From the NCBI GenBank assembly GCA_902529115.1, contig CABZVB010000002.1, positions 1 to 64,000 of the forward strand: DNA of 64,000 bases, written 5' to 3'. This stretch comes from an uncultured Balneola sp. (GTDB lineage Bacteria; Bacteroidota; Rhodothermia; Balneolales; Balneolaceae). Positions 17,401-41,387 of the stretch are shown in pieces; position 1 is the stretch's first letter; each line of letters opens with the position of its first letter. The notes below the pieces were generated by a model, which made no database searches, had not been told where the DNA came from, and saw nothing but the letters and a program-made list of their open reading frames with translations. The translations under genes and the position numbers were made by a program.

Positions 17401-17671
17401 ATTGCCTAACAAATATCTGCTAAATCAAAACTATCCAAACCCGTTTAATCCATCGACCCAGATTCAATATGCTCTACCAGAAGCAACTCAAGTCACCCTT
17501 GAAGTATTTAACAGCGTAGGTCAAAAAGTAATGGAATTAGTGAATGGGCAGCAGTCAGCTGGCTATCATACTGCTAGTTTTAATGCTGCAGGCTTGTCTA
17601 GTGGAGTGTACCTATACAAGTTAACAACACCATCCTTTACCGAAACTAAAAAGATGCTTCTCATCAAATAA
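14447..17671 (+). CDS. Giant BspA/DUF285-repeat surface protein with fibronectin-like domains and T9SS tag
   Basis: A secreted, probably cell-surface protein of 1074 residues. The N-terminal signal sequence ends near VQAQ/EN. A cysteine-containing cap (ITIMCPDAEFGDTGELNGI) leads into 17 DUF285-type repeats of about 24-25 residues with consensus FNQ-x-(L/I)-x2-WDVSNVT-x-M-x2-MF-x2-A (residues about 97-530), closed by a divergent capping unit LWCVSHIT. Four fibronectin-III-like domains follow, each ending in YxWRVRG or a close variant. The last ~85 residues form a type IX sorting domain ([19 protein letters not shown] ... [19 protein letters not shown]). BspA-type repeats are known for binding host or matrix proteins; here adhesion is inferred only. 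Starts at 14447 or 14459 (MKYLPFIPF) are both possible. Confidence 0.9.
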   Translation: MHNIMKYLPFIPFIIIKILPILSVQAQENPDFYLNENGITIMCPDAEFGDTGELNGITYTKRTKEEIQNSGSDTEIATSCTSGITDMSAMLMSRTSFNEDISSWDVSNVTNMDSLFFSARTFDKPLAYWDVSQVTSMHSTFNIATDFNQPINSWDVSNVNNMTSIFYSATEFNQSLNDWDVSNVTDMSGMFHSASDFNQPIGTWDVGNVTDMSNMFNRAYMFNQSLANWDVSNVTDMSGMFSSATKFNRTLNDWDVSNVTLMKEMFRNAGSFYQSADLDNWDVSNVTDMSGMFHSARYFNRPINDWDVSNVTDMSGMFQNASRFNQSLNDWDVSNVTNMATMFSSNGTFNGVIENWDVSNVTDMFGMFYNARSFNQSIENWDVSNVTNMARMFYDARSFNQPIGAWDVGNVTNMESMFYIASKFNQPIGDWNVNNVTNMVNMFANATDFNQPIDTWNVSNVTNMETMFSNTANFNQPLNDWDVSNVENMKAMFNYTNAFNGDIGRWNVSSVSRDGMAQMLKAAKAFNKDLSLWCVSHITAEPSNFNTSGIMQEEYKPVWGTCESVPYKIRLISPEDSTSNTEISQKFTWLKETRATHYQFQIKESDSIIVNQINTFNQVDDTISTDLLTLDYDKSYNWRVRGVNEEFDTFGEWSDEWNLTTTFIEGVELTYPINGETESIVAKLYWNNTQNGGTKSDSHQVQLSTDDFKSVIFDTVGVFIPSTSSSPNLITPKLDYTTTYYWRVRGIIGNKSADWSQTENFITEAATIPKKIRPLNPSGCCYPNDLRFSWFRDSSSTIYQFKLRDSDSMFVDTLDIFNAIEDTVFTEVSDLTYNKSYIWRVRGINIQNVAGEWSEQSLFRINVEPFPTPTLVYPSDEEENVGMVSAFSWSANPFTQEYHIQVSEDSTFNDDPVGQQPKVNLIIPRPPNDVFGNHVYESNEMTLDPSTTYYWRVKAQSIQGLFSSSNWSSAAKFTTGTRTSIEEELLPNKYLLNQNYPNPFNPSTQIQYALPEATQVTLEVFNSVGQKVMELVNGQQSAGYHTASFNAAGLSSGVYLYKLTTPSFTETKKMLLIK
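14735..16084 (+). repeat. DUF285/BspA tandem repeat array (17 units plus cap)
   Basis: In-frame units of about 75 bp encode the WDVSNVT-x-M motif. Unit 8 carries two extra residues (FYQSADLDNW) and unit 17 is degenerate (SSVSRDGMAQM). Neighbouring units share long identical DNA words such as TGATATGTCAGGCATGTTC, which indicates recent unit-level duplication. Confidence 0.9.
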
Positions 17672-19298: not shown

Positions 19299-20573
19299 TT
19301 ATTCAAAAGCTCCCCATCCCTTAGCGGGACTACTTACTTGTAAATTATAATCACCATTTTCAAAGTCAAAAAATAATGGGTTAGCAAAAATTTCTCCTTG
19401 ACCTAATGACTGACCAAGATTAACTTCACTTCCCTCAATATTCCAATAACAATTATTGATGTGATTCACATCATTGACTGCGCCATCAAAACCTTCAATA
19501 AAAACAGCTTCAGTAAGATCATCATTAATGACAATGATATTTTTATTAAGTTCAATATCTCCTGGAGGTGAATCAAAAATAAATACAGCATTCCAAGGAC
19601 CCTCAACCAAATTATCAACTCGTATGATGGTATTGTTTTTCACAATACTACTTTCGGTCGGTGCCCACCAAAGCAGGAAGCTCTGATAGTCTCGACTTAA
19701 ATTATATTCAATAACAACGTTTTTAGAAGACATATATTCAATGTCATCCCAATAACTAATTTCAATAAAACCCATATTGTTGAATGTTTTATTGTTGTGA
19801 ATGTAGATATTATCCTTATGATTCCGACCATCGTCTATCTCTATCGCGCCACCATCAGCGCCAAACTCTCCGCCTGAAGCGTACATATTTTCAATAGTAT
19901 TATGTGAAACTTCTTGATTTCCAATACCTAACTGAATACCTATGGGACCCCACCACGGTTTTGATAAAAATCCGTTTTGACGTCTTATGTTTCCATCATG
20001 TATATAGTTTCTGGTGATTAGGCTATATTGGCTATAAGATTGAATGGCTTTTGGGATATTGGCAAATTCATTATTTCTAACAATAACATAATCGCTTCCC
20101 AAACCAATATGCAGGGCGCCGGTAGACCACACCGTTTCAAATGATACATCTCCGCTAGGAGCTGGTGCTGTGTCATGAAAATACAAGTTTTCAACTATGT
20201 GGTAATCTCCTCTAATTCGCATTGCATTGCCATTGCATGTGCTAAAATAAGGATTGGTAAATTTCGGAGCATCACCTGTTCCATAAGCACCAACTAAAAT
20301 TGGATCTTTGGCGTTTCCGTTGCCATTTATGGTTACGCAGCCAGAATAACTCGTGCCTCTTTTAAAATAAATGTTGTCACCTGGTAGAAAGGACTCATTA
20401 GATACTCTGTTTAATGTCTTCCAAGGATAGCCTTCAGTACCCTCATTAGTATCATCGCCATTTAAGGCATCTACATAGAATATAGATTGGCTATTACGCA
20501 CTGACAAAGCCTGATCATCAACGCATCCAACAAAGCAAAATATTATTAGTAGAGATTTGAAAAACAGGTTCAA
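19299..20573 (-). CDS. Lipoprotein with right-handed parallel beta-helix fold
   Basis: A 424-residue probable outer-surface lipoprotein with lipobox FCFVGC (Cys near 17). The mature part begins SIFYVDALNGDDTNEGTEGYPWKTL, the usual start of beta-helix polysaccharide lyases and related DUF1565 proteins, followed by helix coils with recurrent N-x-I motifs (IVENLYFHD, VIVRNNEFANI, ITRNYIHDG, VSHNTIENM). GGAIEIDDGRNHKDNIYIHNN closely matches the beta-helix part of the next gene, so the two are related. No catalytic residues can be assigned; it could bind or cleave a carbohydrate. It is last in the minus-strand ribose/nucleoside locus. Confidence 0.8.
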   Translation of the reverse strand: MNLFFKSLLIIFCFVGCVDDQALSVRNSQSIFYVDALNGDDTNEGTEGYPWKTLNRVSNESFLPGDNIYFKRGTSYSGCVTINGNGNAKDPILVGAYGTGDAPKFTNPYFSTCNGNAMRIRGDYHIVENLYFHDTAPAPSGDVSFETVWSTGALHIGLGSDYVIVRNNEFANIPKAIQSYSQYSLITRNYIHDGNIRRQNGFLSKPWWGPIGIQLGIGNQEVSHNTIENMYASGGEFGADGGAIEIDDGRNHKDNIYIHNNKTFNNMGFIEISYWDDIEYMSSKNVVIEYNLSRDYQSFLLWWAPTESSIVKNNTIIRVDNLVEGPWNAVFIFDSPPGDIELNKNIIVINDDLTEAVFIEGFDGAVNDVNHINNCYWNIEGSEVNLGQSLGQGEIFANPLFFDFENGDYNLQVSSPAKGWGAFE

Positions 20574-20679
20574 AATTTATTTCAAAATATTATGTCCAGT
20601 TCTTGACAGTATCCAAACTATTTTTTTTATGATTCTGAATATAACTTCGGTTTCTTAAATATTATTTAAGAATATATAA

Positions 20680-23600
20680 TTATTCATGAATTCTAATTTG
20701 TTTTGATATTGAAGAAGACATACCAGAAGTTGACTCAGCGGTTAAAGTAATTACATATTTTCCCGTTTTTTCATATGTATGATTAACATCACTTCCATAA
20801 CCTATATTTCCATCCCCAAAATCCCAGATATATTTTGAAATAGATTCATTTAATTCAGCTGCGCTGCTTTTAGCATCTAATTCAATAGTTGCATTTTCCT
20901 TATAGAAGTTAAATCGTGCGACGAGCGCTGAGTATTTAGATTCAAATGCACCAATATCAGGTGCATTCCCTTGTGCCACATGATTTCTCTGTACATCTAC
21001 AGCATGACGAGATAAAAGTGCCTTATCAATGGCAGGGCTTCCGACGGCTAATTCTAAATGACGATTTTTATAATCAATAAAACCTGGTTCAGAGATTATT
21101 TCTCCAGGACCAAGAGCATATCCTTTCGGGTTTTTCAAACTTTGATCTATTGAATAGTAAATATTGTTACTGGCGGCTTCGCCTGGATCTTCCCATTCAA
21201 ATGCTTTTACACCATTTGCCAATACAAAAATGTTGTTACGGATAATACCATCTGGAATGACATCATGTAGACTAATACCCCAATTAAATTTGTTATTAGC
21301 CGGCAAGACTCTCAAAACTGTATTATTCTCGATAATAGGATTATTTCCAATAGGTCCATCTATAAACCATTGGTAGTCGTCACTGAAGTTGTATGATATT
21401 TCTATGTTATCCCAGGTACAGTCTTCGCATTCTGAATCGTCATAGGTTTCAAGGAAGCCTTGGTTTCCACGAGTAATATTATGATGAATTTTCCAATTCG
21501 TATGATTTCCCTCATCATCAATTTCAATCGCCCCTCCATCAAATCCATAGTTATTCGGAGCCAAAAATCCTTCAATTGTATTGAACGATATATCGCCGTT
21601 ATAACCAGCTACAACTATACCCATAGGTCCCCACCATTCATTGATGCCACCACCAGGACTATGTATATAGTTATTGGTAATTAATACATCATGAGCATAT
21701 AATCTCACACCTACACGGCATCCACTGAACTCACTATTTTGAATAGTAATGTGATGATCTCTTCGATTAAAAGATGCAATACCTGCAACCTTTCTAGGTT
21801 CACTCTGTCCGCAATCATGGATGAACAAGTCATCAATTACAATATGACTTGAAGAAATTCGAATAACGTTTCCGTCATTAGAAGATATATCTGGATTGCT
21901 AAGCGCTGGCCTTTTTCCTTTTCCATACGAAGTAAAAACGATTGGCGAGGATATAGATCCGCTTTCTTTTATTTCAAATGAGCCAATCCATTTAGATCCT
22001 TTTTCAAAAAACACCGAATCTCCGGGTACAAATGGATAGCCATCTATATCGTCTAACGTATCCCAAGGTCTTTCTCTACTTCCATCTCCATCCGTTTTTC
22101 CATTTATGGAGGAAATATAATATTTGTTTGAATTTGATTTGTTTCCAATAGTCCAATTTTCATTGGAGACTATCCCATTCATTTGTTCTATTATAACTTT
22201 ATCAATAAGTGGAAGTAATCTCTTAGCCATGTTTGTAAAACTATCGATTTCTTTGTCTCCTTCATCTTTTATTCCATTTCGGATTACTTCTATGTTGTGG
22301 ATTCCTCCCCCTGTTGGATGCATAACTGAAGCGATAATATCTCCTTCAGAAGCAATATTTTGATTATTTTCAAAAACCTCTAACTCTGAAATACTAATAA
22401 TTCCATCTCCACCGCCTCCTTTTCCAATAAGTCTAATACCGTTACCCTTTTCACTAAGCATAAAAGTATAATTCGAGAATGCTTCACCAAAAACCAGTAA
22501 TTCATCACCGTTTGGATATGCAGGGCTAATTTGATATTCCACGTCAATCCATCTTCCTCTTTTTAACAACTGTAGCCTTAAAGAATTGTTTGCAAACCAT
22601 CCACCATCCTCTGAATGTCTTCCTTCCTGAAAAATTATCTTATTAAATGACCTTTCTTCATTGAATTTATACCCAATGTACTGCTCATCATCTTCAAAAT
22701 ATTCATGATATGTATCAAAATTGTCACCTCCACCAAAATTCTTACGTGTGCGGTTAATATCATATTTTTCAGAAAAATTATAATAGTCAAAGTGTTTTTC
22801 CAACCCTTCAAAACCGTACATGAATCCAAGTAAGCCCCCCCAAGTAGCAGTAGGGTTATCAGAATCTTGACCTGAAAGTGTACCGATCTGTATAGTTCTT
22901 TTGAAATCTCCTTCACCAAAAAGTAGACTAATAATGCTAAACCCGAAATTACTTCCAGAATCATAAAAAGCTGAATATGTATACTCATCGGCTCCACCTT
23001 CTATGTAATAATCATGAAAATCATCTCTAACAGTCTCCCAATCATTTTTATTATCCATATTCATGTATTCGTTTCTTACCCAATCGTACATATCTGCAAT
23101 GTATGAGGAGTCTGGAATATATGTACGGGCAGAGTCGGCTAACCATAGAACTTGCTCTTTTCGAGACAAGTTAGGATCTATACTACTTGCTAGTGAGTGC
23201 ATAACAATATAAAATTGAGCTGCATACATAGAATGGGAGTAGGCTGTTGTTCTAACTGGTAAATATGAAAGTTTAAGCGCTATTTCAGGGTTACCTGGTG
23301 CTAGCAGACCAAATATCTCCGTTGTCAGCTGGGCATCGATCATTTCCCAATTCTCATTATTATGCGGCAAAGAAGTTGCTGGAGGGGTCATATTTTCATC
23401 CAGCATTAGATAAAAAGCTGTTTCATTTGATACCCATAGGAAATTCTCTTCCCTTTGGTATATATGTTCTAACCATTGAGTTTTTATATGCTCACCGGTG
23501 AGTAAATAAGTATCGTATGTTTCCATTGCATGTTGATAGATATATTCTATGTCGGTGTCATCGTCAGCCCCCCATATTTCTTTATCTATTACAAAGTCAA

Positions 23601-23871
23601 TGTATGATCCATGCCAAGGATGCCCTTGATTGGTGTACCAATCTTCATCAGTAAAATAAGGTTTATCATTTCGTACACCCTCAGTTATTAGACCTGTCCA
23701 ATTGGCTATGCTACTGCCTAGCCAGAAACCACGCAATTTTTCTTCATACTCAGTTTTACTAAATGTTTGTCCAAATAAAAAGTGAACATCCAAAAACAAA
23801 ATAAAAATTAGTGTACTGATTATTCTATGCATTAATTTACTGTATTTAAAAACGTTATCTTGTTTTATCAT
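20680..23871 (-). CDS. Secreted ADP-ribosylglycohydrolase / beta-helix / PKD multidomain protein
   Basis: A 1063-residue exported protein. After a signal segment (MHRIISTLIFILFLD...FGQ) comes an ADP-ribosylglycohydrolase-like domain (about 43-400). It has EEKLRGFWLGSSIANWTG, the metal-binding GADDDTDIEY (101-110) and the C-terminal metal motif GQDSDNPTATWGG (near 328-340), counterparts of the DDT and GD(D/A)xDT motifs of the family. A discoidin-like sandwich follows (about 400-520), then a right-handed beta-helix (about 585-930, YYISSINGKTDGDG, GGAIEIDDEGNHTNW) and a PKD domain (YIWDFGDGN, near the C-terminus). The start overlaps the upstream nucleoside-hydrolase stop as ATGA, implying translational coupling. 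Its presumed role is release of ribosyl groups outside the cytoplasm. Confidence 0.82.
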   Translation of the reverse strand: MIKQDNVFKYSKLMHRIISTLIFILFLDVHFLFGQTFSKTEYEEKLRGFWLGSSIANWTGLITEGVRNDKPYFTDEDWYTNQGHPWHGSYIDFVIDKEIWGADDDTDIEYIYQHAMETYDTYLLTGEHIKTQWLEHIYQREENFLWVSNETAFYLMLDENMTPPATSLPHNNENWEMIDAQLTTEIFGLLAPGNPEIALKLSYLPVRTTAYSHSMYAAQFYIVMHSLASSIDPNLSRKEQVLWLADSARTYIPDSSYIADMYDWVRNEYMNMDNKNDWETVRDDFHDYYIEGGADEYTYSAFYDSGSNFGFSIISLLFGEGDFKRTIQIGTLSGQDSDNPTATWGGLLGFMYGFEGLEKHFDYYNFSEKYDINRTRKNFGGGDNFDTYHEYFEDDEQYIGYKFNEERSFNKIIFQEGRHSEDGGWFANNSLRLQLLKRGRWIDVEYQISPAYPNGDELLVFGEAFSNYTFMLSEKGNGIRLIGKGGGGDGIISISELEVFENNQNIASEGDIIASVMHPTGGGIHNIEVIRNGIKDEGDKEIDSFTNMAKRLLPLIDKVIIEQMNGIVSNENWTIGNKSNSNKYYISSINGKTDGDGSRERPWDTLDDIDGYPFVPGDSVFFEKGSKWIGSFEIKESGSISSPIVFTSYGKGKRPALSNPDISSNDGNVIRISSSHIVIDDLFIHDCGQSEPRKVAGIASFNRRDHHITIQNSEFSGCRVGVRLYAHDVLITNNYIHSPGGGINEWWGPMGIVVAGYNGDISFNTIEGFLAPNNYGFDGGAIEIDDEGNHTNWKIHHNITRGNQGFLETYDDSECEDCTWDNIEISYNFSDDYQWFIDGPIGNNPIIENNTVLRVLPANNKFNWGISLHDVIPDGIIRNNIFVLANGVKAFEWEDPGEAASNNIYYSIDQSLKNPKGYALGPGEIISEPGFIDYKNRHLELAVGSPAIDKALLSRHAVDVQRNHVAQGNAPDIGAFESKYSALVARFNFYKENATIELDAKSSAAELNESISKYIWDFGDGNIGYGSDVNHTYEKTGKYVITLTAESTSGMSSSISKQIRIHE

Positions 23872-24947
23872 TGTTCAGAGTTTACGAGTACATAGTTTTC
23901 CATTGAGTTGTAGAAATCTTCCATTATTTCTTTCTTGTTGAAATTTTCCCAAAGAGTAATTTTTCTGGGATTTTCAGGTCTGTCTTTCCAAACGCCGTCA
24001 ATAAGTTCTGGGCTTGGTATTTGAGTAGGAATAGCCCAAGAAGGGTTTTTTACGATAGCAACTGCCGCCATGTCAAAAAGTGCTCTTGCCTGATCGTAAC
24101 CTTCGTCAAAACCATCATCAAATTCTTCAATATTCATAAATAAATTAACAGAATAATCACCAAAATTTGAAAACTCATTACCATGTCGCCCAATAATAGG
24201 ATTCAATAACTCTGGTCCTTTATTTGGCATATATTTTTTGATGTCTGCCAAATAAGCTTTGACAGCGTCAGTACCGGATGGTCGATCGTATCTAACTAGA
24301 GCTATTTCAAATTCCACATTAGAGTCTAGTATGTATTGTAGTGCAGAGGGATCACCATCCTGGTTATACTCACCGGGTTCAGGGTAGTTAGATCCAAGCC
24401 ATACAACTCTTACATTATCGGTGATGGTAGAATCTTTATAGAGTGCAAGAGCAATATTGGTTAGTTTACCGACAGGCAATAAAACCAATTTGTTATCCTG
24501 ATAGACTTTCGCAGTTGAGATAATGTAATTGACCGCCTCATCACCATCAAAAGTAGGTTCATTGATGTTTTCCTTAATTTCTTGAAAAGTACCACTGGCT
24601 CCTTTATAGATTTTAATTTTATCGGAAAGACCACACAATTTTACAACCCTTTCTGCTTCTTTATAATGCTCGTGAATATCTCCTCCACTTCTTGTTTTAT
24701 TAACTGTGATACCCTCTACCTCAAAATCCTGGCCATTGAATAATAAATAGGCTAAGGCATGCTGATCATCAAGTTCATTGTTAGCATCTGTATCGAAAAG
24801 TATTTTGGTTTTCTGTAGGCTATCACTAGTGCAATTGACAATCAAAGAAGCTAGCACTAGCAAGCTAGTTTTTATAAAATTCAGATAATAAATTTTAAAC
24901 TTAGTATGAATTCTATCACTACATATTTTTCCTACTAATTTCATCAT
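23868..24947 (-). CDS. Nucleoside hydrolase family lipoprotein
   Basis: A 359-residue enzyme expected to cleave N-glycosidic bonds of ribonucleosides to ribose and base. The metal-binding motif is ILFDTDANNELDDQHALAY, an IUNH-like DxDxxxDD motif with two extra residues, as in a Bacteroidota-type branch. GSNYPEPGEYNQDGDPSA and a later HGNEFSNFGDYS are consistent with active-site loops. An N-terminal hydrophobic segment ends in LIVNC, so it is probably a lipoprotein that acts outside the cytoplasm. Two adjacent ATGs (24947, 24944) are possible starts. It lies between susD and the ADP-ribosylglycohydrolase fusion. Confidence 0.87.
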   Translation of the reverse strand: MMKLVGKICSDRIHTKFKIYYLNFIKTSLLVLASLIVNCTSDSLQKTKILFDTDANNELDDQHALAYLLFNGQDFEVEGITVNKTRSGGDIHEHYKEAERVVKLCGLSDKIKIYKGASGTFQEIKENINEPTFDGDEAVNYIISTAKVYQDNKLVLLPVGKLTNIALALYKDSTITDNVRVVWLGSNYPEPGEYNQDGDPSALQYILDSNVEFEIALVRYDRPSGTDAVKAYLADIKKYMPNKGPELLNPIIGRHGNEFSNFGDYSVNLFMNIEEFDDGFDEGYDQARALFDMAAVAIVKNPSWAIPTQIPSPELIDGVWKDRPENPRKITLWENFNKKEIMEDFYNSMENYVLVNSEQ

Positions 24948-25030
24948 AAAGTTTTTTTTAATTTAAATTAAAACACAGATGATACTATAAGTCCTCTTTT
25001 TTTACATATTCAACTAAAATCAAATGGATT

Positions 25031-26587
25031 TTACCATCCTGGATTTTGTGGAAGTAGATTGGGATTCAAATCCAATTCGTCGAGAGGAATTGGAAAAAGT
25101 TCGTCTTGGCCATTCCTGAAATTTGAAAAAGATTGATCCCTTGCAATTATATTTCCAGTGGCAGGGACAGTAAAGTCGTTTGCTATTTGAGGCCCATACT
25201 CTCCCCACCTTTTTAAATCAAACCATCTTATAAACTCTCCACATAATTCAACTAGACGTTCATGCTTGATTTGTTCCCGTAATTCGGCCTGACTAAGTGT
25301 CGCTCCTGCGGTCACTTCAAGATTATTCATATTAGCCCTTGCTCTTACAATATTTATATAATTGTGTGCTTCAAGGGTCTTGCCATTCTCATTCAATGCT
25401 TCTGCATATAATAATAAGATATCGGCATATCGAATAATAATCATATCTTTGCCACCATTTTTCCATTGTACAGAACCTGAACCATTGTTTAACTCATTTA
25501 ACACAGCCACATTTTCATTAAACTTGTAAAAACTTGCTTCTGAAACGATATTTGCATTTGATTCCCACCATTCCCATGTCTGTCCATATAATGTTTTATC
25601 ACTGTAATTACTGAAAAGACTCATATTCAACCTAGGATCAATATTTCCATCTTTATCAGTTTCAACTAGATATGATTCTAATGCAAAATTTGTTGCAACT
25701 TGATCAGACCAAATGCCGAAACTGGACTCGCCTGGTGAATTTATTCTAAAAAACCAGTTATAATCCGACTCCTGCTGAGGTCCATTATGCAAAAAATTAA
25801 TTTGGAATATCACTTCCTTATTTCCAGTAGTGAGTTCTTCGGTAAAATTGGATTCATAGTTAGCATTAAGTTTATATTGACCAGATCCAATTAGTTCACT
25901 GAGAATTAGTTCTGCTGCATCATAATCATTTTGTTGCATATGGACTTTCGCCAGTAGTGCTTGTGCTGCACCCTTGGTTATCCTTCCGAATTCAGTAGAA
26001 GAATATGCCTTAGGTAATACCATAATAGCTTCTGTCAGTAAGGTTTCGGTAAAAACCCACATCTCACCTGGTTGTGCTTTTCTAGGCTTATCACTTGCGC
26101 TTTGAATACCATCTACAAATGCAATACCATCTCCGTATGCAGTAATTAAATTATAATATGATAACGCCACCAAAAACTTAGCCTCACCGATTATCCCATC
26201 AATACCAGATATATCGCTGTTTTCTCCTCTTTCAATAACTTGATAAGATCTGGCAATTAAAGTGTAAAAACTGTACCACAATGTGACATGAAATTCATTA
26301 TTAAGATCAGAACTGAATGTAGCCAAATTATATGGGTCGCCAAGCTGGCCCGTAAAACCTTCATCAGAAAGAAGATTAAGAGTATGTTGAATCTGGCCAG
26401 CGTACATATCTCCCGTTTGCAAAAAATCATATGCACCGATCAACCCTTGATAAAAATCTTCTTTTGTTTCCCAGAAGCTTTCTTCAGTTTCAAAGTTAGG
26501 ATTTACCTGTGTTAAATCAGTGCATGAAAATGTAAGTATGCCTATCACAAGAATTAATAATATTGATTTATATATCGATTTATTCAT
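25031..26587 (-). CDS. SusD/RagB-family nutrient-binding lipoprotein
   Basis: Surface lipoprotein that caps a SusC porin and captures ligand. The 518 residues begin with a lipoprotein signal (ILTFSC), and the SusD fold is shown by DLTQVNPNFETEESFW, a TPR-like helical region (GEAKFLVALSYYNLI; RITKGAAQALLAKVHMQQ), DMIIIRYADILLLYAEALNENG and the closing ELCGEFIRWFDLKRWGEYG. It is directly downstream of the SusC gene (25 bp), the standard pairing. Ligand specificity cannot be read from the sequence; context suggests nucleosides or another ribose compound. Confidence 0.95.
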   Translation of the reverse strand: MNKSIYKSILLILVIGILTFSCTDLTQVNPNFETEESFWETKEDFYQGLIGAYDFLQTGDMYAGQIQHTLNLLSDEGFTGQLGDPYNLATFSSDLNNEFHVTLWYSFYTLIARSYQVIERGENSDISGIDGIIGEAKFLVALSYYNLITAYGDGIAFVDGIQSASDKPRKAQPGEMWVFTETLLTEAIMVLPKAYSSTEFGRITKGAAQALLAKVHMQQNDYDAAELILSELIGSGQYKLNANYESNFTEELTTGNKEVIFQINFLHNGPQQESDYNWFFRINSPGESSFGIWSDQVATNFALESYLVETDKDGNIDPRLNMSLFSNYSDKTLYGQTWEWWESNANIVSEASFYKFNENVAVLNELNNGSGSVQWKNGGKDMIIIRYADILLLYAEALNENGKTLEAHNYINIVRARANMNNLEVTAGATLSQAELREQIKHERLVELCGEFIRWFDLKRWGEYGPQIANDFTVPATGNIIARDQSFSNFRNGQDELFPIPLDELDLNPNLLPQNPGW

Positions 26588-26612
26588 TTGTTTATCTATT
26601 AAAAATTAGACA

Positions 26613-29609
26613 TCAAAAACTGAAATTCAGCCCTAAATTATAGATTCTGACATTCGGGAATCCTCCTCCATCGTCAACTCCAGGAGCTAGAATACCACTT
26701 TCGAATTCTGGATCCATACCAGAATATCCTGTAAAAGTCAGTAGGTTCTGGCCAACAGCAAAAAGAGTTAGCTCTCCAATGTTATTCCATGGGACTTTGT
26801 AACCTACGCGAAGGTTCTTAAGTCGTAGATAGGAACCATCTTCGACGTACAAGCTACTGGCGATATTATTAGGACTTCCAAAATCAGCAGTGGGCCTTGG
26901 ATCGGAACCAGATCCATCAATGTATGGATCATATACTCCAGAATAGGTAGTTAGTGGACTTGTATCCATATCATATCTTACGCCATTGAAAATATCTCTT
27001 CCATGAACACCCTGAAAGAATACAGATAGTTCAAAATTTTTCCAGTATGCATTTAGATTTAATCCATATTCTAAATCGGGGTTTGGATCTCCAACAATAA
27101 CCCTGTCATCCCCTTCACTTATATTACCATCTTCATTAGCATCTTGATATTTCGCATCTCCGATATATGGAATCCTATTAATTACAGTGTACTCATTCAA
27201 CTCTGCAGCCTCTTTATAAATACCTTGGTAGCCTAAGGTATAAATCTGACCAATAGGACTGCCAACAGTTGTAATGGAATACTCTCCAAACAGATTTCCC
27301 AATGGAAGACTGGTGACCTTGTTTTCGGTATGGAATAGGTTTGCTGTGATATCATACTTGATAGATTTTTTTAACTCACGAAATACTACTAGAAATTCCC
27401 ATCCTGACCTCTCCATAGTGGCTACATTGATAATGGTAGTTCCGCCTATTCCTTCACCAGTAGTGCCAGGAACAGGTGCCGCTACTAATAAGTCTTCTAA
27501 GTCGCCAAAATAGTAATCCCCAATAAATTCCAATTTTCCATCGAACATTACTAAATCCAATCCTAGATTAGTTTCTTTCAGGGTTTCCCATTTCAGATCA
27601 TCATTTACAAGGTTTTCACGTATAGCTCCTATCACACTACGATCTCCGTAACCAAGGTTATAATTAGTACCGCCTGCCGAACTCGATGCAATTAATGTTT
27701 GATAAGCATAATTTCCAATGCTAGCATTTCCAACCACTCCGTAACCAGCACGTAGTTTTAATCTGGTGATAAAAGGTACATTAAAAAAACTTTCTTCATT
27801 GATATTCCATCCCGCTGAAACTGAAGGGAAAGTACCCCATCTGTTTTTCTCAGGAAATTTTGATGAACCATCTCTTCTTACATTTGCAGTTAGTAAGTAT
27901 TTATCGGAAAAATTATATGTAAGCCTTCCCAAAAATGAACGAATTGTTGATGTTTGCTGATTTCCATATGTCGAGATATTCTCGGGTGATGCAGTTGTTG
28001 ACGATATTTGGAAAAATGGGTCATCACTGTCAAAACCCCCATTAATTGATATACCATTTTGTTTAAAATCAAACTGTTGTTCCGTATGTGTAGCCATTAC
28101 AGAAAATTGGTGATTATTAATACTATTGCTATAAGTTAGTCTATTTTCAATTACAAGCATTAAATCCTCGGCACTGTTTTCTTCTAAACCTGATAAGTGA
28201 GGAATTTCTGTTCTAATCTGTCCACCCCGTTGAAAATTTCTTGCAGCCCCCATATCAATGTCGGCACCAAAGTTAAACTTATATTCAAGATTTTTTAAAA
28301 GCTGGACATCGGTGAATATATTACCCATGATCTTTGTATGATCCTGGTAGCTGTTGAACATCTCTCGAACTCCGACGGGATTGAACTGATAAGTTTCGGC
28401 ATCATCAATAGAACCGTGCCCATACCCACTAATCGTTGTTGGATCGTAAACCGGAATAGTTGGGAACATCATGAGTGTATTATATATGACACCTTGACCG
28501 TCAAGATATTGTTGCCCTATCTGACGAGTTTTACTTACAGCAAGGTTCTGTCCTACTATAATTTTATCATTTAGGTCAAATTCAGTATTGAGACGTACAC
28601 CTACCCTTTGAAAACGGGTTTTATTAATGGTACCATTCTGATCAGTATTGTTTAAGTTTAAATAGACTTTACTTTTCTCGCTTCCTGAGGATATTGATAT
28701 ATTGTTCTCTCGAAAGGATGCAGCATCATCAAAGACTGCTTTCTGCCAATCGGTATCAACGCCACGAGTAAGGTCGTCAGACCAGTTTCTTCGCGGTAAT
28801 CCGGCATTATCATAGGCTGCATTATGTATCCTTGCAAATTCAGCCGTATTTACAACATCCAATTTTTTAGAAAACTGCTGAATACCCGCCTGGCTTTCAA
28901 AAGAAACGGACATTTTATCGGCATTCCCTTTTTTTGTTGTAATAACTACTACCCCATTTGCTGCTCTTGAACCGTATATGGCAGATGAGGATGCATCCTT
29001 CAAAATTTGAATAGACTCAATATCTGTAGGATTTATATTTGGACTATCTTCAGTGGGAATTCCATCGATAACAAATAAAGGATTGTTATCACCGAAAAAT
29101 GAAACACCCCGTATAGTTATATCACCAAGAGAACCGGGTTCACCAGTTTTACTTACTGTAACACCAGGAATTCTGCCCTGCAGGCGGTCCGTTACATTTG
29201 TTGATAAACTTTTTGCAAGTTCCTCCATCTCCACAATACCTACTGCACCTGTGAGGTCTTTTTTTCTTTGAGACCCGTAACCAACCACGACGACTTCTTC
29301 TCCAGAAATAGAACTTACCGGCATTATTATATCTATGCTAGTACGACCATTAATTGGAATTTCTTGGGTTTGAAATCCGAGATACGAAACAATTAAAGTG
29401 TCTGACAAGGACATGACATTTAATTGAAATAATCCTTCTCGATTTGTAGCTGTTCCCGAAGAAGTACCTTTAACTTTTATATTTGCACCTGGTAGAACTT
29501 CTTGCGATTCATCTGTTACTTTACCATTAATGGTATATTGCGCATTAGCTTTAACAGAGCAAAACATCCCAAAAAGAATTACCAGTGTTGCTTTCTGATA
29601 TATTTTCAT
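26613..29609 (-). CDS. SusC/RagA-family TonB-linked outer-membrane transporter
   Basis: TonB-dependent porin that imports ligand presented by its SusD partner. At 998 residues the length is usual. A signal peptide (ending KANAQ) is followed by a carboxypeptidase-regulatory-like domain (YTINGKVTDESQEVLPGANI), a TonB-box-like EEVVVVGYGSQRKKDLTG segment, the plug (FVIDGIPTEDSPNINPTDI, ILKDASSSAIYGSRAANG) and a beta-barrel ending with an aromatic terminus (YNLGLNFSF). It is first of the SusC-SusD-hydrolase gene set and is preceded by a surface lipoprotein gene (37 bp). Confidence 0.96.
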   Translation of the reverse strand: MKIYQKATLVILFGMFCSVKANAQYTINGKVTDESQEVLPGANIKVKGTSSGTATNREGLFQLNVMSLSDTLIVSYLGFQTQEIPINGRTSIDIIMPVSSISGEEVVVVGYGSQRKKDLTGAVGIVEMEELAKSLSTNVTDRLQGRIPGVTVSKTGEPGSLGDITIRGVSFFGDNNPLFVIDGIPTEDSPNINPTDIESIQILKDASSSAIYGSRAANGVVVITTKKGNADKMSVSFESQAGIQQFSKKLDVVNTAEFARIHNAAYDNAGLPRRNWSDDLTRGVDTDWQKAVFDDAASFRENNISISSGSEKSKVYLNLNNTDQNGTINKTRFQRVGVRLNTEFDLNDKIIVGQNLAVSKTRQIGQQYLDGQGVIYNTLMMFPTIPVYDPTTISGYGHGSIDDAETYQFNPVGVREMFNSYQDHTKIMGNIFTDVQLLKNLEYKFNFGADIDMGAARNFQRGGQIRTEIPHLSGLEENSAEDLMLVIENRLTYSNSINNHQFSVMATHTEQQFDFKQNGISINGGFDSDDPFFQISSTTASPENISTYGNQQTSTIRSFLGRLTYNFSDKYLLTANVRRDGSSKFPEKNRWGTFPSVSAGWNINEESFFNVPFITRLKLRAGYGVVGNASIGNYAYQTLIASSSAGGTNYNLGYGDRSVIGAIRENLVNDDLKWETLKETNLGLDLVMFDGKLEFIGDYYFGDLEDLLVAAPVPGTTGEGIGGTTIINVATMERSGWEFLVVFRELKKSIKYDITANLFHTENKVTSLPLGNLFGEYSITTVGSPIGQIYTLGYQGIYKEAAELNEYTVINRIPYIGDAKYQDANEDGNISEGDDRVIVGDPNPDLEYGLNLNAYWKNFELSVFFQGVHGRDIFNGVRYDMDTSPLTTYSGVYDPYIDGSGSDPRPTADFGSPNNIASSLYVEDGSYLRLKNLRVGYKVPWNNIGELTLFAVGQNLLTFTGYSGMDPEFESGILAPGVDDGGGFPNVRIYNLGLNFSF

Positions 29610-29645
29610 TTTGACATTGGTTAATAAAGGTTGATGATTTAATAA

Positions 29646-30617
29646 TTAATCTACTATTCCAATATTGTCAATCCTGAATGAAATAGGATCGCCCTGCTCT
29701 CCTCCCCAAACCTCTATCCCGATATATCCAACTGTAGATGGGTCAGCTGGAAGCCCCCATAGACTAATGAAATCTGATAGTGGTATTTCAATACTCTGCC
29801 AACTTTCTGCATATTCGAGATTCAAACTGCTAATTTGTTTTTGTCCACCACTTGCTCCCCATGTTTCATCTACAAAATATAATTGAATATCAGCAGCGGT
29901 TGGATCATCTTCCCAATGTGCACCACTTAATGTAGGAGCAGTAAAATGACTGTAATCAAATCTTAATGTTTTCCCTGTAAAATCTTGATTACCTCCAAGA
30001 TTATATTCCGACCATATATAAGTCTCTGAAACATTATGGGTAATCATGAGATGATCATTATTTTCTAATGTTATTGATCCAAAATTTGTACCATCATGTT
30101 CAAAGTTCAATCCTTCAAAAGTGAAATTTGGAACTGGATTGTCAACAACACTACCCGTACCATGGCCGTTAAAATCGATTAAAACTGAAGCATTGCCTGT
30201 ATAATCTTCAGCTCCAAGAACTGATGCAATAATTACTGCAAATGTTGCGCTAACATCATGGCCTTCTTGTCCGTCTGTAGCAGTAACTGTGATATCTGAG
30301 GACCCCGCTCCAACCTCACTTATAGTTAACACAGTATTATCAAGACTTATGTCTATTACCGATTCATCAGAATTCGTAACTTGGTAGTTTATAATTTCTC
30401 CTTCTTGATCGCTTACATAGTTGGCAAAATCAATTTCATATTTACCAAACCCTGGACTTAAAAATACATTATTTAATCCTGATATCACAGGTGGTTGGTT
30501 AATGATGAGTGGAGGATCATATGATTCATCAAAACCAAAAAAATCAAAGCACCCAGTAATTACTGTTAGTGATAAAATTAAACAAGTGGGGATTATTAAA
30601 TATTTTCTATTTTTCAT
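29646..30617 (-). CDS. Surface lipoprotein with cadherin-like and carbohydrate-binding-like domains
   Basis: Probably a surface glycan- or ligand-binding protein of the SusCD locus. The frame extends to a TTG at 30638, but the ATG at 30617 (MKNRKYLIIPTCL) gives a clean lipoprotein signal with Cys at LTVITGC. An Ig/cadherin-like domain follows (NQPPVISGLNNVFLSPG ... ITVTATDGQEGHDV), then a ~190-residue beta-sandwich (VLIDFNGHGTGSVVDNPVP to FRIDNIGIVD). The sandwich is roughly 80 percent identical to that of the 31.1-31.8 kb gene. No catalytic motif. Confidence 0.75.
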   Translation of the reverse strand: MKNRKYLIIPTCLILSLTVITGCFDFFGFDESYDPPLIINQPPVISGLNNVFLSPGFGKYEIDFANYVSDQEGEIINYQVTNSDESVIDISLDNTVLTISEVGAGSSDITVTATDGQEGHDVSATFAVIIASVLGAEDYTGNASVLIDFNGHGTGSVVDNPVPNFTFEGLNFEHDGTNFGSITLENNDHLMITHNVSETYIWSEYNLGGNQDFTGKTLRFDYSHFTAPTLSGAHWEDDPTAADIQLYFVDETWGASGGQKQISSLNLEYAESWQSIEIPLSDFISLWGLPADPSTVGYIGIEVWGGEQGDPISFRIDNIGIVD

Positions 30618-30638
30618 GTCAACCATATTTGGATTCAA

Positions 30639-31093
30639 TTTTTGATTTGATGTAAGACAAATATTTGTATCAAAGCATAAGCATTTACGAATTTTACTAA
30701 AATATATTCTCTCAACTTCAGAGCCAGTTGTTCTAAGTTTTGGTTCTATTGATTTATTCTGCTATTCGTTATTAAAAAAAATTTAATAATGAAAATGTCG
30801 TTTAGCCTTTTTATTTATAATATATTTTCAATTGACTATTCAACCTCTATAAATGACAGCACAAAAAACCGAGAAAATATTACCGAATGTTTATAAACCT
30901 ATCTTATTTCAGCGTTAATTCAGCATCATTGAAAACTAGTATTTAACTTCACCTTTCATAAAAGCTAAATTTTTGAGGATTCTAAAGGCATATACGCATT
31001 TAATTAATTCAGTTTTTTTATCAATTAAATGTACATCTGTATATGCCTTTATTTTATCCTAATGTTGGTTAATAAAAGCTAGTGATCTTATGT
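30639..31093. other. 455-bp intergenic region between the two sister surface-lipoprotein genes
   Basis: Non-coding. It contains a 12-bp palindrome ACAAATATTTGT at 30657-30668, close upstream of the 29.6 kb operon and so a candidate operator or promoter element, and a long imperfect hairpin at 30984-31050, listed separately. Its AT-content is high and no open frame is convincing. Confidence 0.4.
30984..31050. repeat. Long two-part inverted repeat (hairpin) downstream of the 31.1 kb lipoprotein gene
   Basis: The outer arms AAAGGCATATAC (30984-30995) and GTATATGCCTTT (31039-31050) are perfect 12-bp complements. Inner arms CATTTAATT (30997-31005) and AATTAAATG (31023-31031) are perfect 9-bp complements. 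The arms are separated by 1 nt on the left and 7 nt on the right. It may terminate or stabilise the minus-strand transcript from the gene ending at 31094. Confidence 0.7.
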
Positions 31094-31783
31094 TTAATCT
31101 ATGATTGCAAAATTATCGATTCGAAATGTAATAGGGGCATTCCGCTTGCCCCCCCAAATCTCTATCCCAATATACCCTACCGTAGATGGCTCCACTGGAA
31201 GATCCCATAGACTATTAAAATCAGATAGTGAAATTTCAATAGTCTGCCAACCTTCTGTGTATTCTAGGTTTAAGCTGCTAAATTGTACTTGTCCACCACT
31301 TTCACCCCATTCCTCGTCTACAAAATATATTTGAATATCAGCAGCAGTTGAGTCATCCTCCCAATGTACACCACTTAATGCAGGAGCAGTGAAATGACTG
31401 TAGTCAAATCTTAATTTTTTCCCGGTAAAGTCTTGATTACCACCAAGATCTAATTCAGACCATATGTATGTCCCTTCTACATTATGGGTGATAAACAAAT
31501 GGTCATTATTCTCTAATGTTATTGATCCAAAATCAGTACTATCATATTCAAAGGTCAAACCTTCAAATTTAAAATTTGGTACCGGATTATCAAAAACACT
31601 ACCCGTTCCAAGTCCATTAAAATCTATTAAAACTGAAGCAACACCACTAATATCTTCAGCTCCAGTAATTGATTGTTCATCACTGACTGAAGTAGGTTGA
31701 TCCTCAGAGCATCCTATTGCTAATGCAAATGTTAGTAATAGAATAAAATTTATTTTGAATATTACGTAGTTTCTTATTTTCAT
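31094..31783 (-). CDS. Surface lipoprotein, sister of the 29.6-30.6 kb protein
   Basis: A frame extends to 31822, but the ATG at 31783 has AAAGAGA upstream and gives a lipoprotein signal (KINFILLLTFALAIGC), leaving 229 residues. After the lipobox and a short linker, the whole protein is the beta-sandwich found at the C-terminus of its neighbour (VLIDFNGLGTGSVFDNPVP ... SALN-type strands ... FRIDNFAIID). The cadherin-like domain is missing. It is presumably a ligand-binding surface protein made by duplication. It is transcribed divergently from the transporter and ribokinase genes. Confidence 0.75.
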   Translation of the reverse strand: MKIRNYVIFKINFILLLTFALAIGCSEDQPTSVSDEQSITGAEDISGVASVLIDFNGLGTGSVFDNPVPNFKFEGLTFEYDSTDFGSITLENNDHLFITHNVEGTYIWSELDLGGNQDFTGKKLRFDYSHFTAPALSGVHWEDDSTAADIQIYFVDEEWGESGGQVQFSSLNLEYTEGWQTIEISLSDFNSLWDLPVEPSTVGYIGIEIWGGKRNAPITFRIDNFAIID

Positions 31784-32122
31784 AATTGCTATCTCTTTAG
31801 ATAATGTATGTTTGAATAACAAATAAACAAATATTGATTAAAACTACAACTGACAGAGTTTTTACATGTCTATTTAGAAAAGGTCTAAATAAGAAGACAT
31901 CTTTATACTTATTTGTAAAGTATAAAATTTAATTTCAAGGATATAGTTTTTCCAAACTATTATCTCATAGATTTATCAATGGATAAGATTGGATAGCTTA
32001 CAACTTTTTCACTTACACTAGAAAATGCAAAACAAAGCAACTGCACATTTTTCTTGCAATAAGTAATATTTATTGTAAATTTTTATTTGTATTTAAAAAT
32101 AAAAATACAAGGAGTTATTTAA
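31784..32122. promoter_or_regulatory. Divergent regulatory region between surface-lipoprotein and transporter/ribokinase genes
   Basis: This 339-bp spacer separates two divergent transcription units of one pathway and so is the likely control point. It contains a perfect inverted repeat TATTTAGA-5-TCTAAATA (31871-31891), a candidate operator, and a second inverted repeat TTGTATTT-8-AAATACAA (32087-32110) abutting the Shine-Dalgarno AAGGAG (32109-32114) of the transporter gene. Exact promoters could not be assigned. Confidence 0.45.
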
Positions 32123-33127
32123 ATGGTAATAGTAGAATCATATTTAATTGCTATAGTATTGTGTTTTATAACCATGCTTTGTTGGGGATCTTGGGCTAAT
32201 ACACAAAAACTTGCAAGTAAAGAATGGAAGTTTCAATTATTTTATTGGGATTATTCAATTGGTGTACTTTTACTTGCATTATTTTTTGCTTTTACATTAG
32301 GTAGTTTTGGATCTGAGGGTAGGCATTTTATTGAAGATCTTTTTCAGGCTGACTCAAATGCATTATTATCCGCTTTTCTAGGTGGGGTTATTTTCAATCT
32401 AGCTAATATATTAATTGTTGTCGCAATTGATATAGCTGGAATGGCTGTAGCCTTTCCAGTTGGTATTGGGCTTGCATTAGTTTTAGGAGTAATCACAAAT
32501 TATATTGGAGCCCCAGTTGGTAATCCATATTTATTATTTGCTGGAGTTGCAGCAGTTACAATAGCGATATTAGTAGATGCAATAGCTTATAGACGACTCT
32601 CTGGATCTAAAGAAAGTAAAGCAAGAAATGGCTTATTGATTGCTTTAGCAGGTGGAATTTTAATGGGTTTTTTCTATCGATTTGTCGCATCATCAATGTC
32701 CGTAGATTTTGTAACACTAGAAGTTGGAAAGTTAAGTCCATACACAGCAGTAGTTATTTTTTCACTCGGTTTACTAGTATCAAACTTTGTGTGGAATACA
32801 ATCTTAATGGTAAAACCATTATCCGGTGAACCTGTTAAATATTCAGATTATATAAACAAGGGAAGTTTAAAGTTACATTTGATTGGAATACTGGGTGGGG
32901 TTATTTGGAGTATTGGCATGTCATTTAGCATCATTGCTTCTGGTGCAGCTGGTTTTGCCATATCATATGGACTTGGACAGGGTGCTACAATGGTAGCAGC
33001 ATTTTGGGGTGTATTTATATGGAAAGAATTTAAAGACGCACCTAAAGGAACTAATAAGTTACTTGGCCTTATGTTTTCTTTTTTTATTGTCGGATTAACA
33101 CTAATAATATTAGCTCGAATTTATTAA
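32123..33127 (+). CDS. GRP-family sugar permease, probable ribose transporter
   Basis: A 334-residue inner-membrane protein with about ten hydrophobic helices, belonging to the drug/metabolite superfamily branch of glucose/ribose/rhamnose porters (GRP/RhaT-like). Characteristic segments are the N-terminal MLCWGSWANTQKLASKEWKFQLFYWDY, IAGMAVAFPVGIGLALVLG and a late GQGATMVAAFWGVFIWKEF. AAGGAG 8 bp upstream is the best Shine-Dalgarno in this region. The stop is directly followed by the ribokinase ATG, so transporter and kinase are almost certainly coexpressed; this points to ribose as substrate. Confidence 0.87.
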   Translation: MVIVESYLIAIVLCFITMLCWGSWANTQKLASKEWKFQLFYWDYSIGVLLLALFFAFTLGSFGSEGRHFIEDLFQADSNALLSAFLGGVIFNLANILIVVAIDIAGMAVAFPVGIGLALVLGVITNYIGAPVGNPYLLFAGVAAVTIAILVDAIAYRRLSGSKESKARNGLLIALAGGILMGFFYRFVASSMSVDFVTLEVGKLSPYTAVVIFSLGLLVSNFVWNTILMVKPLSGEPVKYSDYINKGSLKLHLIGILGGVIWSIGMSFSIIASGAAGFAISYGLGQGATMVAAFWGVFIWKEFKDAPKGTNKLLGLMFSFFIVGLTLIILARIY

Positions 33128-34057
33128 ATGAAAACCACTAATAATATTGTAGTAATAGGTAGTTCCAATGTTGATATGATCATAAGAGGAGACAGAATAC
33201 CAAAACCTGGTGAAACCATTATAGGTGGGAAATTTTATAAAGCTGCAGGAGGAAAAGGAGCAAATCAGGCTGTAGCAGCTGCTAGAGCTGGTGGTAGAGT
33301 AACTTTTCTGTCTAGAGTGGGTAATGATGTCTTTGGTCAAGAAGCTATTCAAGGGTATAGAAACGATAAAATAAATGTGAATTATGTAAAAGTAGATCAG
33401 ACTGAATCTACAGGTATTGCATTGATTCTTGTCGACTCAAAAGGTGAAAATTGTATATCTGTTGCATCTGGAGCTAATATGAAACTTGACAAAAGTGATA
33501 TTAAAGATGCTACTGCTGAACTTGATAACGCTGATGTAGTGCTAATGCAATTAGAGACACCAATAGAAACCATTGAATACATAATTAAATTGTTAAAAAA
33601 TAAACAAGTCAAAACAATCCTTAATCCAGCACCTGCATTGAAGATAAGCGATGACTTGTTGGCGCATCTTACAATTATCACACCAAATGAAACAGAAGTC
33701 GAACTACTAACTGGGGTAATAGTTAATGATGAAAAAGACGCACTTAAAGCATCTAAAATTCTATTGGATAAGGGAGTAAAAAATGTAATTATAACGATGG
33801 GTAAAAAAGGAGCTTTTTTACACTCAGAATTAGGCTCTATACTTATTCCAGCTTTTGAGGTAAATGCTCTTGATACAACTGCAGCAGGCGATACATTTAA
33901 TGGAGCTTTTGCCGTTGCTGTAGCTGAGGGTAAAACACTAGAAGATGCTGTAGAATATGCTAATGCTGCTGCTGCAATTTCTGTGACTAAAATGGGCGCG
34001 CAGCCTTCTATTCCTTTAAGAAATGAAATTGAAGATTTTTTAAGCCATATAGACTAA
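33128..34057 (+). CDS. rbsK: Ribokinase (PfkB family)
   Basis: Cytoplasmic kinase converting ribose to ribose 5-phosphate. The 309 residues include NVDMIIRGDRIPKPGETI, the first PfkB signature GGKGANQAVAAARAGG, ILNPAPA, TPNETEVELLTG, and the second signature DTTAAGDTFNGAFAVA with the catalytic Asp. Length and motifs match ribokinase well. Translation begins at the base following the transporter stop codon. With the nucleoside hydrolase and transporter it completes a route from nucleoside to the pentose-phosphate pool. Confidence 0.92.
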   Translation: MKTTNNIVVIGSSNVDMIIRGDRIPKPGETIIGGKFYKAAGGKGANQAVAAARAGGRVTFLSRVGNDVFGQEAIQGYRNDKINVNYVKVDQTESTGIALILVDSKGENCISVASGANMKLDKSDIKDATAELDNADVVLMQLETPIETIEYIIKLLKNKQVKTILNPAPALKISDDLLAHLTIITPNETEVELLTGVIVNDEKDALKASKILLDKGVKNVIITMGKKGAFLHSELGSILIPAFEVNALDTTAAGDTFNGAFAVAVAEGKTLEDAVEYANAAAAISVTKMGAQPSIPLRNEIEDFLSHID

Positions 34058-34350: not shown

Positions 34351-34356
34351 TTGAGT

Positions 34357-35445
34357 ATGAAATATTACCTCTATTTATTACTTCTTTTTTGTAATTCTAT
34401 TAGTGCTCAAGAAATAAATCAAACTGAATTTTATGGAAAAGAATATTTTTTAATTGAAGGAACAATTGTCGAAGATCATCTCAAAGAGAGTCCTTATGAT
34501 AGGCTTCCTATTTCATATAAAGAGCTTGTTAGAACACCTGTATGGAATTTATCTAAGTCTTCTGCTGGTATATCTATTCGTTTTTGGACAAACACCTCAA
34601 ATCTTAAAATTAAATGGGAGGTCATGAATGATTTCTCAATGGATCACATGCCTGATACTGGGATTAAAGGAGTTGATTTATATTTTAGAAATGGCCAGAA
34701 ATGGCGGTATATCAACACTGGAAGGCCTCAGGGGTTCTTTAACGAGTATACTCTGATTGAAAATATGGATGAAGTAATGAGGGAATTTAAAATTTTCCTT
34801 CCCTTATATGATGGTGTGAAAAATATTGAAATTGGTATTGATTCAAAAAGCAGTATTAAAAAACCATCAAAAAACTCAAAAAAACCTATCATATTTTATG
34901 GAACGAGTATAACGCAAGGAGGATGTGCATCAAGACCTGGTATGGCACACACGAACATCGTGTCGCGACAACTAGATATCGATGTTTATAATTTTGGTTT
35001 CAGTGGAAATTGTCGCATGGAACAGCCTATTGCTGAATTAATTTCTTCAGTAGAACCTTCTCTCTATATTATTGAATGCATGCCTAATATGATTAAACCA
35101 GAACTTATTACTGAAAGAACTATTCCACTAGTTAAAACCATACGTAAAAAGAATCCGGATACACCAATTATTTTTGTTGATCTATTTAAATCACCCATTA
35201 CTCTATTAAATAATAAAATAAGAAGTGAAAATGAGGCTATGGATGAAGCTTTAAAAGCCGAATATAATAAGATGATTGAAAATGACTTTAAGAACATTTT
35301 TTTTATAGAAACACCAGAACTTACCGATTCTGATCATGAGGGCACTGTTGATGCCGTCCATTTTACAGATTTGGGATTCCAAAGGTATGCTGACTTTTTA
35401 ATTGAACAACTAAAAGAATTTCAAATACTACCATCTAATAATTAG
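34357..35445 (+). CDS. Secreted SGNH/GDSL hydrolase (esterase)
   Basis: A 362-residue exported esterase, probably a carbohydrate deacetylase. The ATG at 34357 starts a clean signal peptide (MKYYLYLLLLFCNSISAQ); a TTG two codons earlier is also possible. An N-terminal beta-sandwich contains GVDLYFRNG, the GxDLY motif, followed by the hydrolase domain with the nucleophile in GTSITQGG (Ser184), FGFSGNCRM (block II) and the C-terminal DAVHFTDLGF, which supplies the Asp-His pair. The acyl substrate is unknown. It stands alone between the ribokinase operon and convergent outer-membrane genes. Confidence 0.87.
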   Translation: MKYYLYLLLLFCNSISAQEINQTEFYGKEYFLIEGTIVEDHLKESPYDRLPISYKELVRTPVWNLSKSSAGISIRFWTNTSNLKIKWEVMNDFSMDHMPDTGIKGVDLYFRNGQKWRYINTGRPQGFFNEYTLIENMDEVMREFKIFLPLYDGVKNIEIGIDSKSSIKKPSKNSKKPIIFYGTSITQGGCASRPGMAHTNIVSRQLDIDVYNFGFSGNCRMEQPIAELISSVEPSLYIIECMPNMIKPELITERTIPLVKTIRKKNPDTPIIFVDLFKSPITLLNNKIRSENEAMDEALKAEYNKMIENDFKNIFFIETPELTDSDHEGTVDAVHFTDLGFQRYADFLIEQLKEFQILPSNN

Positions 35446-40229: not shown

Positions 40230-41312
40230 TTAGTTGATTTTAAAAGAATAAATTGTTGAACTTGTAAATATTGTTCCAGGATGAAGAATTGTATTCGGAA
40301 ATAAAGGCTCATTTGGTGAATTAGGAAAATGTTGGGTTTCAAGACATAATGCAGTATGCTTATTTAGAGGTAGGTCATTTTCAGTATTCAATGTACCATT
40401 TAAAAAATTACCTGTATAAAATTGTAAACCTGGTTCGGTAGTGTAAATTTGAAGACTTCTACCGCTAGTAGGATCAGTTAGTGTCGCAGCTCGGTATAAA
40501 TCATTATATAATTCATGTTTTAATTTCTTATCTAGCACAAAATTATGATCAAATCCAAAAGGGGTATGGATAATTTGTTTGCCAATAATTGTTGACTTAT
40601 TAAAATCGAAAGGGGTGTCTCTAACATATTGTAATTCGCCGGTTGGTATAAACTCTGAGTCTGTCGGTGTATATTGAGTGGCATTTAGGATTAATTCATG
40701 ATTATTTATTTGATTTTGAAAATCACCGCTTAGATTAAAATAAGAGTGATTAGTAAAATTAATAGGGGTTTTTTTATTGGTACTTGCTTGGTAATCGATA
40801 CGAAGGTTATTGCCACTATCTAAGGAAAATTTCACTTGTACATTCAAATCACCGGGATAGCCCATATCTCCATCAACACTTACAGTTTTTAATATAACTT
40901 GTTGTGGGTCGATTTTTTCAATATCCCACAACATTTTATCTAAACCTTTATTTCCTCCATGAAGATGATGATTGCCATTATTAATTGGGAGACTGTATTC
41001 AACATTATCTATAGTAAATTTACCCTTTGCAATTCGGTTGGCAAATCTGCCAATTGTCGAGCCAAAATAAGGGGTTCCTTTTTCATACGGGGTAACATTT
41101 GAATAACCAATTACAATATTTTTAAAAATTCCATTACGATCAGCTGTTTTAATTGAAGTGATAGTTGCGCCAAAATTTGAAACAGATATCTCAGTGCCTT
41201 GATCATTTTTTAATGTAATGACTGTTGATGCAGTTCCGTCTTTTAGATAGCCAAAATTTTTAACATAATTTTTTCCATCATTATTAGAAATACAATTCAT
41301 TAAAAAAAACAT
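40230..41312 (-). CDS. galM: Aldose 1-epimerase (mutarotase)
   Basis: Interconverts alpha and beta anomers of hexoses such as galactose. Visible in the 360 residues are NNGNHHLHGGNKGLDKMLW, NHSYFNLSGD (catalytic His), DHNFVLD, GLQFYTGNFL and LETQHFPNSPNEP (catalytic Glu), all standard GalM motifs. The N-terminus is odd: MFFLMNC looks like the end of a lipoprotein signal, and the hydrophobic part of that signal lies in another frame just upstream of an A8 run (41302-41309). The protein may be extracytoplasmic in relatives. It follows the FGE gene on the same strand by 75 bp. Confidence 0.92.
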   Translation of the reverse strand: MFFLMNCISNNDGKNYVKNFGYLKDGTASTVITLKNDQGTEISVSNFGATITSIKTADRNGIFKNIVIGYSNVTPYEKGTPYFGSTIGRFANRIAKGKFTIDNVEYSLPINNGNHHLHGGNKGLDKMLWDIEKIDPQQVILKTVSVDGDMGYPGDLNVQVKFSLDSGNNLRIDYQASTNKKTPINFTNHSYFNLSGDFQNQINNHELILNATQYTPTDSEFIPTGELQYVRDTPFDFNKSTIIGKQIIHTPFGFDHNFVLDKKLKHELYNDLYRAATLTDPTSGRSLQIYTTEPGLQFYTGNFLNGTLNTENDLPLNKHTALCLETQHFPNSPNEPLFPNTILHPGTIFTSSTIYSFKIN

Positions 41313-41387
41313 ATAAAATTAATACTACAATATAATTTTTTATATCAAAGAATTTATTAGCTCTATTTGATATAAATAATTCGAAAA

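Follow-up and report, generated by a model that had tools for sequence, protein, structure and literature searches.

A probable ribose and ribonucleoside scavenging locus of rus-like composition, with SusCD of another lineage, in an uncultured Balneola

The window analysed here is a stretch of 64,000 nucleotides from an uncultured Balneola sp. (assembly GCA_902529115.1, contig CABZVB010000002.1, positions 1 to 64,000). It carries a locus that is probably a rus-like system for scavenging ribose and ribonucleosides, to which a SusCD pair would have been recruited independently. This reading is based on the part list, the folds, the active-site motifs and the wide linkage of the genes, all taken from sequence. 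Ribosides, or larger ribosyl compounds, would be bound by the surface lipoproteins and SusCD and so cross the outer membrane. Still outside the cytoplasm, ribose would be cut from nucleosides or ADP-ribose by two enzymes acting on N- and O-ribosyl bonds, a nucleoside hydrolase (NH) lipoprotein and a secreted ADP-ribosylglycohydrolase (ADPRGH) protein. A GRP permease would move free ribose over the inner membrane, and ribokinase (RbsK) would convert it to ribose 5-phosphate, the sugar serving as food. All of the named genes were open reading frames at the following coordinates, and their Pfam and NCBIfam assignments held.

19299..20573, minus strand: beta-helix lipoprotein with a Cys17 lipobox and a partial DUF5123
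20680..23871, minus strand: secreted protein with an ADPRGH domain, a beta-helix and a C-terminal PKD domain (Pfam, predicted model)
23868..24947, minus strand: NH lipoprotein (IU_nuc_hydro), subfamily DTDANNELDD, lipobox Cys39
25031..26587, minus strand: SusD-family surface lipoprotein (Pfam/NCBIfam)
26613..29609, minus strand: SusC/RagA TonB-dependent outer-membrane transporter (TIGR04056, 797 bits)
29646..30638, minus strand: surface lipoprotein in a SusE-like position, putative ligand-binding protein
31094..31822, minus strand: second surface lipoprotein, a duplicate of the C-terminal domain of 29646-30638
32123..33127, plus strand: GRP/ureide-permease family inner-membrane permease (ureide permease and sugar transport models)
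33128..34057, plus strand: ribokinase (TIGR02152, above cut-off)
34351..35445, plus strand: GxDLY and Lipase_GDSL_3 esterase directly 3' of the ribokinase gene, possible member

An earlier note on this DNA had listed SusC, SusD, two surface lipoproteins, an NH lipoprotein and an ADPRGH protein, with a divergent GRP permease and ribokinase, and the Pfam and NCBIfam models agree with that content. It had also placed the ribokinase directly after the permease, and indeed the ribokinase start is the base following the permease stop. The genes likely form two transcription units, one on the minus strand from 31822 to 19299 and one on the plus strand from 32123 to 34057, the latter perhaps extending into the GDSL esterase at 34351. 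The NH and ADPRGH genes overlap by 4 nt, and the two small surface lipoproteins are copies of each other, with 77.6% identity across 192 aa. In the divergent intergenic region, a single weak match to a Bacteroidota-type promoter and an imperfect palindrome of 14 bp were seen, neither of them meaningful. A perfect 18-bp A+T palindrome, TTTTAATTTAAATTAAAA, lies in the gap between the SusD and NH genes (24956-24973) and may be chance in AT-rich DNA.

The window ribokinase scored 384 bits against the equivalog model TIGR02152 (cut-off 300), and its alignment with the E. coli enzyme (E 8e-81) spans the full length. The NH reached 78 bits with PF01156 (cut-off 34), and its predicted model matched NH structures with a probability of 1.0 and TM-scores of 0.6-0.64. 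Its subfamily motif is DTDANNELDD, a DTD motif with a two-residue insert, and the lipobox Cys39 is invariant. The Ca and ribose-site residues D52, D54, D60 and D61 are kept. In the alignment with E. coli RihC, E193, N195 and D292 fall on the AEFN and HDL residues, so that both the E-x-N motif of the ribose site and the late Asp are kept; where classic NHs have their leaving-group His, the window protein has Phe.

The ADPRGH protein scored 82.8 bits with PF03747 (cut-off 26.2). In a predicted model of the whole 1063-aa protein (pLDDT 66), residues 36-560 adopted an ARH3-like fold (Z 23.2, rmsd 3.1, 284 aligned residues); the low Foldseek TM-scores of this model are due to its multidomain nature. 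A PDB sequence search with the ADPRGH profile gave no match, while the fold search did. DDDTD at 103-107 and DSDN at 336-339 are invariant in the domain and are the putative metal ligands, as in ARH/DraG proteins. Two features were missing from the earlier note: the fusion partners of the ADPRGH domain, a right-handed beta-helix (about 580-950) followed by PKD, and an insert of about 155 aa (375-540) inside the ADPRGH domain of the window copy. The fused beta-helix was nearest to PL9-type lyases (Z 28), with matches to PL9/PL6-type enzymes at Z 25-28. The beta-helix lipoprotein at 19299..20573 is a homologue of this beta-helix part (32% over 420 aa) and fell just short of the DUF5123 cut-off (34.8 against 35.1 bits). 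Elsewhere in the window's genome lies another ADPRGH of this subfamily (G000:C8:67186-68178; L002, L033), which is shorter and 46% identical; a single ADPRGH of that kind is present in most of the genus members that were searched.

The grouping of these genes is not due to chance, as three routes showed. RbsK, NH or ADPRGH was found nearby in 52 of 66 GRP-centred loci, which were drawn regardless of NH and mostly extend no more than about 1.5 kb to either side; the corresponding count was 0 of 29 in control loci centred on SusC with similar flanks. Permease and ribokinase were both near in 20 of 76 NH-centred loci from named genomes. Within the window's own order, the NH subfamily was matched in 12 of 98 genomes, and tight runs of NH, permease and ribokinase occur there in L021, L023, L024 and L028, joined by ADPRGH in L021 and L024. 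These four clusters and one from Cyclobacterium (L078) have the NH subfamily, permease and kinase of the window but, unlike the window, no SusCD or beta-helix was seen adjoining. The linkage reaches marine Bacteroidota and other phyla (Neomarinimicrobiota, Kiritimatiellota), and in a KSB1 locus (L055) genes for NH, RbsK, a beta-helix protein and ADPRGH occur as well. In L060 and L057, both the DTDANNELDD type of NH and another NH subfamily lie beside permease and ribokinase.

The closest relatives were four marine loci (L050-L053) from Flammeovirgaceae/Marinoscillum and one unplaced Bacteroidota MAG. There SusC-SusD-ADPRGH-NH-ADPRGH(/beta-helix)-GRP-RbsK form one co-directional run, with GRP and RbsK on the same strand as the rest, whereas in the window they lie on the opposite strand. 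Orthologues of the window's SusC (62-65%), SusD (69-77%), NH (68-81%) and ADPRGH/beta-helix/PKD protein are present, the ADPRGH/beta-helix fusion being kept in all four, and L051-L053 have a homologue (55%) of the surface lipoprotein at 29646-30638. They differ from the window in a second ADPRGH between SusD and NH and, in L051 and L052, in an upstream LacI-type regulator gene, none being found in the window stretch. The nearest NHs (L050:6491-7924, L051:9482-10963) are extended at the N-terminus, in L051 by a part that Pfam assigns as SnoaL/NTF2-like; the window NH lacks such an extension. The ADPRGH protein of L050 and L051 continues past PKD into a type IX secretion (T9SS) tail, while the window copy stops at PKD. 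Because of signal peptides and such tails, export of the hydrolases is predicted, in keeping with the extracytoplasmic placement proposed in the earlier note. A GDSL gene of a different Pfam family lies 3' of RbsK in L051.

For comparison with rus, loci were anchored with NCBIfam model NF058569 (cut-off 550), which bears the name 'BT2802 family ribose utilization protein'; BT2802 corresponds to the regulator RusR. The comparison covers RusR-linked loci of Bacteroidales other than B. thetaiotaomicron. One Bacteroidales family had a regulator above this cut-off divergent to ribokinase-ADPRGH-NH-permease loci, and in a second family eight genomes with such a regulator were chosen by the regulator alone. 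In all six RusR-anchored loci with enough contig, ribokinase and SusC followed the regulator and a GRP permease lay farther downstream, preceded by SusD with two or three ADPRGHs or else by an NH. The rus part list given in the earlier note (SusCD, transporter, ribokinases, NH, ADPRGH) was therefore confirmed by sequence in these loci. In one Bacteroidales family (L252-L265), the RusR-RbsK-ADPRGH-NH-permease set was common with no SusCD beside it, and in L300-L304, which are RusR-linked, two esterase-like proteins of about 525 aa lie between ADPRGH and permease.

In the literature the rus PUL is BT2803-2809, regulated by RusR, with RusT as putative ribose transporter and activity highest on ribose (PMC12596196). 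A ribokinase, a GRP-type permease, a SusC-SusD pair, ADPRGH, NH and the predicted export of the hydrolases are common to rus or RusR-linked loci and the window. The window permease was 53-58% identical to the two RusR-linked permeases compared. The window differs from the rus PUL in its SusCD lineage and NH subfamily, in GRP-RbsK on the opposite strand, in the fusion of ADPRGH to a beta-helix and in the extra beta-helix and SusE-like lipoproteins. Its NH, by sequence a member of a different subfamily, gave only short local matches with rus NHs (29% over 55 aa). No BT2802-family regulator was found at the window locus (genome 87.6% complete), and the only match to the RusR model in that genome was a distant one on contig C20 (144 bits against the cut-off of 550). 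The description as rus-like given in the earlier note is partly supported: the part list and the permease and ribokinase homologues suggest that the locus works like rus, whereas SusCD, the NH subfamily and the missing RusR speak against a rus locus by descent. The permease, ribokinase, NH and ADPRGH are constant in rus-like systems, while SusCD, NH subfamily and regulator are swapped. Our literature search returned no paper on ADPRGH with NH and a PUL, nor on PULs of Balneolaceae.

In the SusC maximum-likelihood tree, the window sequence and those of L050-L052 formed a 100/100 clade, which joined SusCs of GH43 and GH2 loci that also include a BNR protein in a 13-row starred clade (100/98). 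RusR-linked SusCs were placed elsewhere, in agreement with an earlier tree. The window SusC was 28.7% identical to RusR-linked SusC and 36% to GH43-locus SusC; the corresponding values for SusD were 24-26% and 32-34%, against 69-76% with the SusDs of L051 and L050. The grouping with rus proteins that the earlier note had proposed to look for was not seen, and the grouping with systems for unrelated glycans that it had held to count against its reading was found in part, the nearest SusCD being those of GH43/GH2 loci. By tree and identity, the window SusC and SusD are not orthologues of the rus pair, and the outer-membrane half is recruited from a lineage other than that of rus loci. In the earlier tree SusCs linked to the core are scattered over several separate places, and starred branches force at least three label changes, so that the core probably acquired its importer on more than one occasion. 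The starch-SusD model NF033071, applied as a route to B. thetaiotaomicron, gave no match above cut-off in the sampled order, nor was there a hit in four genomes of the G462 family.

This placement of SusC bears on an alternative that we consider unlikely, namely a locus for a pentofuranosyl glycan. Beta-helix proteins would cut or bind a polymer containing ribose or arabinose, SusCD would import oligomers, its usual cargo, and NH and ADPRGH would free ribofuranose for the permease and phosphorylation. The two beta-helix domains, with PL9/PL6-type matches for the fused one, the kinship with SusCs of GH43, GH2 and BNR-protein loci, and the gene content of the KSB1 locus all argue for it. However, no recognised polysaccharide-active enzyme family exceeded its cut-off within the locus, the beta-helix fold is common and does not indicate function, and RusR-linked loci use SusCD too with no beta-helices seen adjoining. 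That a ribofuranosyl or mixed pentofuranosyl polymer is eaten instead of free nucleosides, with the beta-helix proteins as depolymerases and NH and ADPRGH as exo-ribofuranosidases, is likewise improbable in our judgement; the locus would then be dedicated to a ribose-containing glycan. We prefer the reading as ribose and ribonucleoside scavenging, against which stand the beta-helix domains, whose part in cleaving nucleosides is not obvious, the non-rus SusCD, the short NH matches, the lack of RusR at the locus and the Phe in place of the leaving-group His. The exported ribosyl-hydrolases predicted here, including the ADPRGH/beta-helix fusion, are concrete candidates for assay.

The two halves of the locus appear to differ in history. 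A single clade of the window GRP with the GRPs of L050-L053 was rejected (p-AU 0.008, in a clade test chosen after the tree was seen). As the window GRP stands apart from these permeases while its SusC groups with theirs, the permease seems to have an origin different from that of the SusCD half; the claim is made for GRP alone because the RbsK tree lacked resolution. That the minus-strand SusCD-NH-ADPRGH locus and the plus-strand GRP-ribokinase operon are merely unrelated neighbours, as the divergent strands and the separate GRP would allow, is very improbable, since the same families are repeatedly linked elsewhere, including in the co-directional run of L050-L053, and assembly of the same set again despite differing histories points to a functional link between the halves. 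The nearest NHs (81% and 68-70%) came from genomes outside the sample of the window's order, the best inside it reaching 53-58%. NH was absent from two genomes of the same genus (98% and 93% complete), one of which also lacked the permease, and the window's genome was alone among seven of the genus in having two ADPRGHs. Together, these sequence comparisons fit a horizontal gain.

On both sides of the locus lie large BspA-like DUF285 repeat proteins (14447-17671 and 38403-39977), which resemble each other at about 51% over 288 aa; type IX secretion tails were also present on their neighbours. Near the locus, 40230-43930 encodes an aldose epimerase, an FGE-type sulfatase-modifying protein and a sulfatase, and an FGE-like gene was also found in the NH/ADPRGH region of L055.
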